A stretch of 64,000 bases of DNA from NCBI GenBank assembly GCA_028723425.1, contig JAQYEZ010000038.1, forward strand, positions 17,256 through 81,255, in the 5' to 3' direction. The stretch's first letter is position 1; each line of letters opens with the position of its first letter. This DNA comes from Peptoniphilaceae bacterium (GTDB lineage: Bacteria > Bacillota > Clostridia > Tissierellales > Peptoniphilaceae). The notes beneath the pieces were generated by a model. The model saw only the letters and a list, made by a program, of their open reading frames with translations. It was not told the origin of the DNA and did no database searches. Position numbers and translations under genes: made by a program. Below are positions 14,650-52,061 of the stretch, piece by piece.

Positions 14650-15561
14650 TTAATATTTATTATGAGCTATCTCTATCTCCTCTATCATATCTCTACCGTC
14701 TAGCATTTTCTTTATATTTTTTACATCAAGTATAATAATCTCATGCTTATTTAAAGTTGCTTTTGATTTTTCTGTCAAAAATGAAGTATTTATAACCAAA
14801 AGTGGTTTTATCTTGCCAAGTATGCCTTCCAAATTATCGATCATATCTAAAACAAAATTATGGTCAATTTCATCCTTACTATCATAATTCTTAACCTTTA
14901 TAGCATATCTCATATCACCCTTTTTTGCATAAAGGTCAAACTTGGTTGATACTTGGTATTCTTCTTGGTAGTCTTCAACCCCATAGCCGCACTTTTCAAG
15001 AGCTATTGTAACCAATCTCCTTGAAGTTAAATCTTCATTAATCTTTCTAAGAGCATGGAGTAGATTTTTCGGTACTATCTTAAAAATACCCGTAACAGCC
15101 TCACTATATTTATCAACTGACTTAGTATCAAAACCAATAATCAAGTCATCTACAATGTTAAAAGATCCATGAGCTATAGCATTTCTTATATGTCTTAACA
15201 TTGACTCTGCCTTAGTTTCATTGTCCGATTTTGTAAAAATCAATTTTTGAGAATTGGTACAAATTCCTTTCTTGTAAAAATTCACTATATCAGGATCAAT
15301 CTTGTCTGTAAATAATACATCCTCATCTCTAAGTTTCATATAGGACATTATCTCCAAAAAAGTGTAATTATCATATAGAATATTAGAAATTAACTCGTTA
15401 GATTTTGATTGAACTGAGGATATATCTGGCACATACCATAAAAGATAAGATATTGCCTCCCACAAATCCTTTGTCATTGGCAAGGGTATCACTTTATGTA
15501 TCAAAGAATATTTTTTTATATCTTTGCACGAATCTATCTCAAATTTGTCTGTAAGCTTCAT
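14650..15561 (-). CDS. Putative HEPN-like plus Mrr/PD-(D/E)XK-like restriction endonuclease-fold protein
   Basis: SMLRHIRNAIAHGSF (RX4H) in the N-terminal helical half; KFDLYAKKGDMRYAIKVKNY in the C-terminal half resembles the Mrr catalytic strand (D ... xxK). Confidence 0.6.
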   Translation of the reverse strand: MKLTDKFEIDSCKDIKKYSLIHKVIPLPMTKDLWEAISYLLWYVPDISSVQSKSNELISNILYDNYTFLEIMSYMKLRDEDVLFTDKIDPDIVNFYKKGICTNSQKLIFTKSDNETKAESMLRHIRNAIAHGSFNIVDDLIIGFDTKSVDKYSEAVTGIFKIVPKNLLHALRKINEDLTSRRLVTIALEKCGYGVEDYQEEYQVSTKFDLYAKKGDMRYAIKVKNYDSKDEIDHNFVLDMIDNLEGILGKIKPLLVINTSFLTEKSKATLNKHEIIILDVKNIKKMLDGRDMIEEIEIAHNKY

Positions 15562-15669
15562 ATAATCACCTTCTCCATATATTTACCCCTATTAGTAAAA
15601 ATTAATAAAACAATTTGCCTACACTTTATTAAAAATAACTGTATAATATTGTCTAGAAAAGGAGGACTT

Positions 15670-16548
15670 ATGCATTATACAGGTCAAGTTTATAGACCAC
15701 CCCTAGAAGCCTACACACCATTATTGGAGGTAACTATTGGGTGCTCACATAATAAATGTGCTTTTTGCACTATGTACAAACAAACACCTTTTAGCCTTGC
15801 GCCAAAAGAAAATATAGAAGCAGATTTAAAGGAACTTTCAAATTATGATTCTTTTATAGATAGGATTTATCTATTAAACGGTGATCCCTTTGTTCTTTCT
15901 ACAGATAAACTTGTAGATATAGCAAATATGATTCATTCAAATCTTTCTAATGTAAAGACCATAACTTGTTATGCTTCTTTTTATAATTTAAAAAACAAAT
16001 CAGTTGACGAGCTTAAAAAGCTAAAAAGTTTGGGATATAATGAACTTTATATAGGCGTAGAAAGTGGCTATGATAAAGTTTTATCCTACCTTAACAAAGG
16101 AGCAAATCTTGATGAATATAAGGAGGGCTTGGAAAAATTAAAAGAAGCCTCTATAGAATATCATGCTATTATTATGCTAGGAATTGCAGGAAGAGGAAAT
16201 TCTAAAATAAATGCTCAAAAAACAGCAGAATTTTTAAATCTTTACCCTCCAAGATCTGTTTTTCCTATGACTACTGATGTACAAAAAGGATCCATGCTTT
16301 ATGAAATGAGAAAAAATGGTTTGTTTGAAGAAGCGACCATAAGAGAAATATTAGAAGAGCAAATCGAATTAGTAGAAAATCTACAACTTGATGATAATGC
16401 TCTTTACTCATCAGCTCATGCAGTTAATATGTTGTCTATAAGACATAGATTTAAAAATAAGGATAAGATACTTGAAAAGCTACATTATGCTTTAAATCAT
16501 GCACCTGATGAAATACTAAACTCTACCAACCAAAGAGTTGCTAGATAA
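15670..16548 (+). CDS. Radical SAM protein
   Basis: CSHNKCAFC (CX5CX2C) cluster motif, YIGVESGYDKVL; ATG 15670 preceded by AGGAGGACTT, so the ORF track start at 15496 is too long. Confidence 0.9.
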   Translation: MHYTGQVYRPPLEAYTPLLEVTIGCSHNKCAFCTMYKQTPFSLAPKENIEADLKELSNYDSFIDRIYLLNGDPFVLSTDKLVDIANMIHSNLSNVKTITCYASFYNLKNKSVDELKKLKSLGYNELYIGVESGYDKVLSYLNKGANLDEYKEGLEKLKEASIEYHAIIMLGIAGRGNSKINAQKTAEFLNLYPPRSVFPMTTDVQKGSMLYEMRKNGLFEEATIREILEEQIELVENLQLDDNALYSSAHAVNMLSIRHRFKNKDKILEKLHYALNHAPDEILNSTNQRVAR

Positions 16549-51343: not shown

Positions 51344-51631
51344 TTATTTTTTCTTTAAAAATAGGTCTGAATGAGAACCTAGTCTATAAAGCAAAAGCAT
51401 AAGGACATCCTCTTGGTACTCATATATTAAGAGCCAATCAGGTTCAATATGACACTCTCTTGTTTCCCTATAGTTTCCAGTAAGAGAATGGTCTCTATAT
51501 TTACTTTCTAATGCCTTGCCTTGGGCAAGTTGATCTATAACTTCAAATAGTTTATCTAAATCTTTTTTCTGTTTCTTAGCAAGTTTAATATCTTTTTTAA
51601 ACTGTGATGTAAATTTTATCTGGTATTTCAT
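51344..51631 (-). CDS. Type II toxin, YafQ/RelE-family mRNA interferase
   Basis: YQIKFTSQFKKDIKLAKKQKKDLDKL...LTGNYRETRECHIEPDWLLIYEY. Confidence 0.92.
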   Translation of the reverse strand: MKYQIKFTSQFKKDIKLAKKQKKDLDKLFEVIDQLAQGKALESKYRDHSLTGNYRETRECHIEPDWLLIYEYQEDVLMLLLYRLGSHSDLFLKKK

Positions 51632-51900
51632 ACTTCCAAGGCCTTCTTAAGGTCTTCTATATTAGAAAATCCTTCTACCCTTTTATCCTTAGCAATCCTT
51701 CTTCCTTCATCAATAGCTGACCTTGTTAAGGCATTAGGAATATCTAATTTCAAGGAAAATGGAATTCCATTTTCTCTAATGGCTGTTCTTAAAAACATAT
51801 TAATGGCTGTTGTCATATTAAGTCCTAATTCTGAAAAGATAACTTCTGCTTGCTCTTTTATTTCCTTATCTGTTCTTATGTTTAAATTTGTTGTTCCCAT
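51628..51900 (-). CDS. Type II antitoxin, RelB/DinJ family
   Basis: MGTTNLNIRTDKEIKEQAEVIFSELGLNMTTAINMFLRTAI; 4-nt overlap with toxin. Confidence 0.92.
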   Translation of the reverse strand: MGTTNLNIRTDKEIKEQAEVIFSELGLNMTTAINMFLRTAIRENGIPFSLKLDIPNALTRSAIDEGRRIAKDKRVEGFSNIEDLKKALEV

Positions 51901-52061
51901 CGTATCAACCTCCATTCTTACCTTTATTTTATAGCTTTATTTGGCTTATGTCAATACGTTGTCATTATTTTAAACGTATTTTCTTTAATTTTCATCTGCA
52001 TTATATAAAAGAGTGAGTAGATAAGCATTGATATTTCTAATATTTAGTATAAAAAGAAAAG

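Follow-up and report, generated by a model that had tools for sequence, protein, structure and literature searches.

What does a bacterium do with a protein that joins an N-terminal HEPN-like half to a C-terminal fold of the Mrr type in a single polypeptide? The gene in question lies in a 64-kb stretch of DNA, referred to below as the window and taken, as positions 17256-81255 of contig 38, from a genome of the genus Anaerococcus (1.9 Mb in 85 contigs). An earlier note, made from the sequence of this stretch, had proposed a stand-alone defence effector. The features of the gene are collected in Table 1. Its start codon is consistent with the starts found in relatives, and its G+C content (30%, against 31% for the whole window) is so close to that of its surroundings that there is no compositional sign of recent import.

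Table 1. Features of the fusion gene, in window coordinates.
Feature	Position	Strand	Basis
HEPN-Mrr-fold fusion gene	14650..15561	-	303 aa, ATG start; ORF and full-length homologues
HEPN-like half, residues 1-178	15028..15561	-	AF2 pLDDT 89.6; PF18736 sub-threshold; hhalign 95%
RNAIAH, the RX4H HEPN catalytic motif, residues 126-131	15169..15186	-	R126, N127 and H131 invariant in 55/55
Mrr/Hjc-type PD-(D/E)XK-fold half, residues 180-303	14650..15024	-	AF2 topology; Foldseek; Mrr_cat in 23/55 members
Degenerate nuclease core D209...K222-V-K224	14890..14937	-	per-sequence triads and tree

The HEPN assignment was examined at the level of the motif, of the fold and of known families. The earlier note had read an RX4-6H signature in the segment MLRHIRNAIAHGSF (residues 121 to 134), and this reading holds: when 55 homologues were aligned (relatives 31-62% identical to the 303-aa protein), R126, N127, A130, H131 and G132 were invariant, as were H22, P26, LLWY at positions 40-43, P45, S49, Q51, D81 and K106. 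Because these five residues of the motif region are kept in 55 homologues at identities down to 31%, the RX4H motif of the 303-aa protein, judged from the alignment, is not a product of chance. The AF2 model of the full-length protein had a mean pLDDT of 87.5, and the HEPN half modelled alone gave a confident helical model (pLDDT 89.6) with helices at residues 31-42, 61-74, 90-98, 117-130 and 164-177 and a beta-hairpin at 140-162. RNAIAH closes helix 117-130 and runs slightly beyond it, and it is where a core helix ends that members of the HEPN superfamily carry their conserved RX4-6H.

The comparison with known families was less direct. The 303-aa protein did not reach a curated HEPN cut-off in Pfam, with 23 bits for PF18736 (cut-off 26.6, E 7e-5) and 21.3 bits for PF18737 (cut-off 26.8, E 3.5e-4); when the 55 members were scanned singly, 39 matched PF18736 (HEPN pEK499_p136), also below threshold. 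The profile of the HEPN half was aligned by hhalign, with 95% probability over residues 30-136, to a protein encoded at L124:7325-7840, which is itself above the PF18736 cut-off (36 bits). Foldseek found no significant match of the HEPN half among solved structures (PDB), despite the confident helical model. This missing fold match is the weakest point of the assignment and is offset by the sequence evidence; with no such match, and with Pfam scores below cut-off, the HEPN call draws on the motif and its strict invariance, the sub-threshold profiles and the link to the L124 protein. NCBIfam returned nothing meaningful for the 303-aa protein; a match to Cas13e (17 bits for a cut-off of 175) was taken to reflect the shared HEPN motif only, and the sequence matches in the PDB were discarded as chance-level.

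The C-terminal half was modelled as a nuclease fold, with the alpha-beta-beta-beta-alpha-beta core of Mrr-type PD-(D/E)XK proteins (helix 180-190, strands 194-197, 210-214 and 217-223, helix 234-245 and strand 251-256), as the earlier note had supposed from the segment GYGVEDYQEEYQVSTKFDLYAKKGDMRYAIKVKNY (residues 192 to 226). Foldseek matched it to EndoMS/NucS-type nucleases, AF1548, the CRISPR ancillary nuclease Can2 and Hjc, and also to viral Mrr-type nucleases. In the one-by-one Pfam scan Mrr_cat was matched by 23 of the 55 homologues (best 2.7e-9) and not by the 303-aa protein itself, and Hjc, AHJR-like and PDDEXK_9 gave single or few matches among the 55. The catalytic D...(E/Q)xK is missing from the 303-aa protein, which has D209...K222-V-K224 instead. 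The K-V-K pointed out by the earlier note is thus real; it is, however, peculiar to this sequence, the core of the family being D-(E)xK. Position 222 is E or D in 52 of the 53 main-family members and K only here.

The state of the whole active site in these 53 members was DEK in 24, DER in 17, EDK in nine, and DEH, DEI and DKK in one each, the last being the 303-aa protein; six divergent copies had DEK (five) or DDK (one). On the protein tree the deep branches are all DEK, save the divergent DDK copy L072. DER requires at least five changes, EDK has one origin in a clade of nine, DKK is one leaf within Anaerococcus, and the HEPN motif requires no change at all. As far as these sequences tell, KVK is a lineage-specific loss in an ancestral D-ExK core, and E222K may have become fixed in this strain alone. 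Averaged over all pairs, identity amounts to 50% for the HEPN half and 40% for the nuclease half. For close main-family pairs dN/dS was mostly 0.02-0.14 in both halves, and the values of the gene lay within the range of the flanking genes and below several of them. The HEPN site thus looks kept and the nuclease site looks to be decaying. Since the catalytic motif drifts while dN/dS stays low, the nuclease-fold half would be kept, at least in the derived lineages, for something beyond the standard catalytic motif; in the deeper-branching members, which retain the full D-ExK, the second domain may still cut. This pattern of apparent decay in one motif and not in the other supports the suggestion of the earlier note that the nuclease fold serves for sensing or binding.

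We then looked at the distribution of the fusion gene. It was present in all 31 Anaerococcus genomes and, as full-length homologues, in 67 of the 130 genomes of the family (13 of 39 genera); it is missing from the 26 other genera, meaning that it is not essential family-wide. A full-length HEPN half without the nuclease half was not found within the family genomes. Outside the family, searches of the class and the phylum gave partial matches only, save one full-length copy in another family (G177, L122), which comes from a contig of 4.4 kb and is possibly a contaminant. Collections of phages, plasmids and viral contigs contained no relatives of the gene.

Its loci are ordinary chromosomal ones. 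The gene stands beside rplM-rpsI in four deep genera; in most Anaerococcus genomes it occupies one shared site, alongside an envelope-like gene, an S41-like gene (both labels come from our reading of the sequences and not from database matches), a histidine kinase and a response regulator; and the Peptoniphilus-type loci have different housekeeping neighbours. No neighbour is constant across the loci. A GFO/IDH oxidoreductase gene starts 10 bases after the fusion gene in the window, and a radical SAM gene is divergent from it, as the earlier note had remarked; neither adjacency was kept in the relatives inspected, and a partnership with either gene was rejected. The radical SAM ORF, listed at 15496-16548 (+), begins inside the fusion gene, and its true start is probably at about 15670, after AGGAGG. 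A macro-domain gene is near the fusion gene in about 15 loci (in one of them, L012:7496-7990(+), about 10 bases upstream); it was dismissed as an obligate partner, the window genome being devoid of any macro domain. In some Peptoniphilus the fusion gene overlaps at its end with a TadA-like deaminase gene (L015:8869-9348(+)), which suggests co-translation with a tRNA-editing enzyme gene; TadA adjoins the fusion gene only in some Peptoniphilus-type loci and was not retained as a partner. No RNA family was found around the gene, and the promoter-like sites at the gene were uninformative. Elsewhere in the window, at 51344-51915 (-), two overlapping small genes resemble, by sequence reading only, a RelB/DinJ-RelE/YafQ toxin-antitoxin pair.

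As the earlier note had observed, there is no methyltransferase gene in the neighbourhood in the window; the relatives inspected have none there either, and the gene was therefore not considered a component of a restriction-modification (R-M) system. The proposal of a stand-alone defence effector fared less well. The same note had written that a conserved core gene in a housekeeping context would speak against it, and this is what was found: the gene is core in Anaerococcus and occupies conserved housekeeping loci, its dN/dS is like that of its neighbours, it has no phage, plasmid or viral relatives, and the 303-aa protein has no match in PADLOC. The survey of neighbourhoods for defence enrichment, also suggested there, gave housekeeping neighbours instead. 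Core status and genomic context thus rule against a stand-alone mobile defence gene as the default reading. Because it is carried by every Anaerococcus genome examined in an ordinary chromosomal setting, the fusion seems to be a lasting function of the cell rather than a mobile weapon, and a constant role in RNA metabolism or in the stress response fits its core status better than phage defence does.

The distant kin tell something of its past. In other families the HEPN-half profile finds two distant HEPN proteins, both inside Type I R-M operons, one with HsdM, HsdS, HEPN and HsdR (L124) and the other with an N6-methylase, HsdS and HEPN (L123); no more than four matches came up when the class was surveyed with PF18736, so that the R-M link of the kin rests on these two loci. 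They make a defence ancestry of the fusion family plausible. The highly divergent fused copy L072:7239-8183(-), which has the triad DDK, is flanked by a VirD4/TraG coupling gene on one side and by VirB4/VirB6-like genes on the other; being in a conjugative element, it indicates that the family is not wholly immobile. Four genomes have, in addition to the main copy, a second divergent one (L068, L069, L070 and L071), all with DEK and with LRCIRN for LRHIRN, and in one of these genomes (G112) a TAA interrupts the main copy. Genes for pEK499_p136-like HEPN proteins have been found in R-M operons, and several independent HEPN-REase fusions have been described (PMC3710099). The kin in R-M operons, the L072 copy and these published cases together make an origin of the family in conflict systems likely.

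Compared with known systems, the 303-aa protein shares its RX4-6H region, with RNxxAH, with the pEK499_p136-like family (PF18736; Anantharaman et al. 2013, PMC3710099); it differs in being below the curated cut-off, fused to an Mrr fold and encoded by a core chromosomal gene, whereas the operons given for the described family are of the R-M, ART, Macro and Pgl kinds (PMC3710099). With the Mrr_cat/Hjc-type nucleases (PF04471, PF01870) and EndoMS/NucS the fusion family shares the fold and the D-x12-ExK spacing, but the 303-aa protein lacks the acidic E (K222) and the K is replaced in several relatives. The described fusions EC042_2821/DUF3644, DUF4145-REase and HEPN-M with a Holliday-junction-resolvase-like REase (PMC3710099) likewise unite a HEPN domain and an REase fold in one polypeptide; the Anaerococcus fusion, in contrast, belongs to another HEPN family, has no wHTH or Zn ribbon, stands outside R-M operons and has a catalytically decayed REase half. 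It is an uncatalogued version of the known HEPN-REase architecture.

We tentatively favour, at slightly less than even confidence, a chromosomal and vertically inherited HEPN endoRNase of the Anaerococcus/Peptoniphilus group, domesticated and guided or gated by a degenerate Mrr fold that would bind nucleic acid. In known HEPN enzymes the active site is composite and formed by two HEPN domains, so that a homodimer would be expected here, with the N-terminal half cutting RNA through the site made of R126 and H131. The Mrr-type fold, which would have lost its cutting activity in this species, and probably in several relatives as well, may bind nucleic acid and thereby position the RNase or switch it on. 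The family would descend from HEPN proteins of the R-M-operon kind, then domesticated to a constant cellular role, for which RNA processing, RNA turnover or an RNA cut triggered by stress or damage are candidates.

Three other readings have to be weighed against it. A resident effector of the abortive-infection type, stably inherited, would sense invading nucleic acid with its Mrr fold, cut cellular RNA with its HEPN half and so stop growth. HEPN and REase-fold domains are indeed common in defence (PMC3710099, PMC9519451), and the kin in Type I R-M operons and the copy in the conjugative element point the same way; but a genus-core gene at fixed loci among housekeeping genes, with dN/dS as low as theirs, absent from phages and plasmids and giving only weak PADLOC matches in other members, is not what such an effector would lead one to expect, and we regard this reading as somewhat unlikely. 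If both domains cut in most of the family, the HEPN half RNA and the PD-(D/E)XK half DNA, E222K would be confined to one strain, either as a recent loss or as an error of assembly. The 24 main-family members with D-ExK, deep branches included, the D-(E/D)xK of all six divergent copies and the purifying selection on both halves agree with two active nucleases, yet in several separate lineages Lys has given way to Arg, His or Ile, and the clade of nine has D and E swapped. Active Mrr-type enzymes rarely tolerate the loss of this Lys or a D/E swap, and such a dual nuclease seems quite unlikely to us. Still less probable is a protein that binds RNA or acts in regulation and has no cutting domain at all: catalysis by the fusion protein is a prediction, and conservation extends to many residues beyond the HEPN motif (LLWYVP, Q51, D81, K106), but the strict invariance of R126, N127 and H131 over 31-71% identity is what catalysis would lead one to expect.

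The fusion might even be a family-specific bacterial housekeeping HEPN RNase, domesticated from an ancestor linked to R-M systems, whose restriction-nuclease fold now senses nucleic acid and gates RNA cleavage. This is a doubtful but real possibility, and it would parallel the way in which eukaryotes recruited HEPN for rRNA processing (Las1).

What is known of HEPN RNases concerns mobile weapons above all, and where PMC3710099 stresses that they were recruited for constant functions of the cell, the examples are eukaryotic. If the domestication proposed here is true, it would offer a directly testable passage from conflict to housekeeping, with a HEPN protein that all of a bacterial genus has fixed, and the contrast of interest would be that between a frozen RNase motif and the decaying site of the restriction nuclease fused to it, in species that are easily named.
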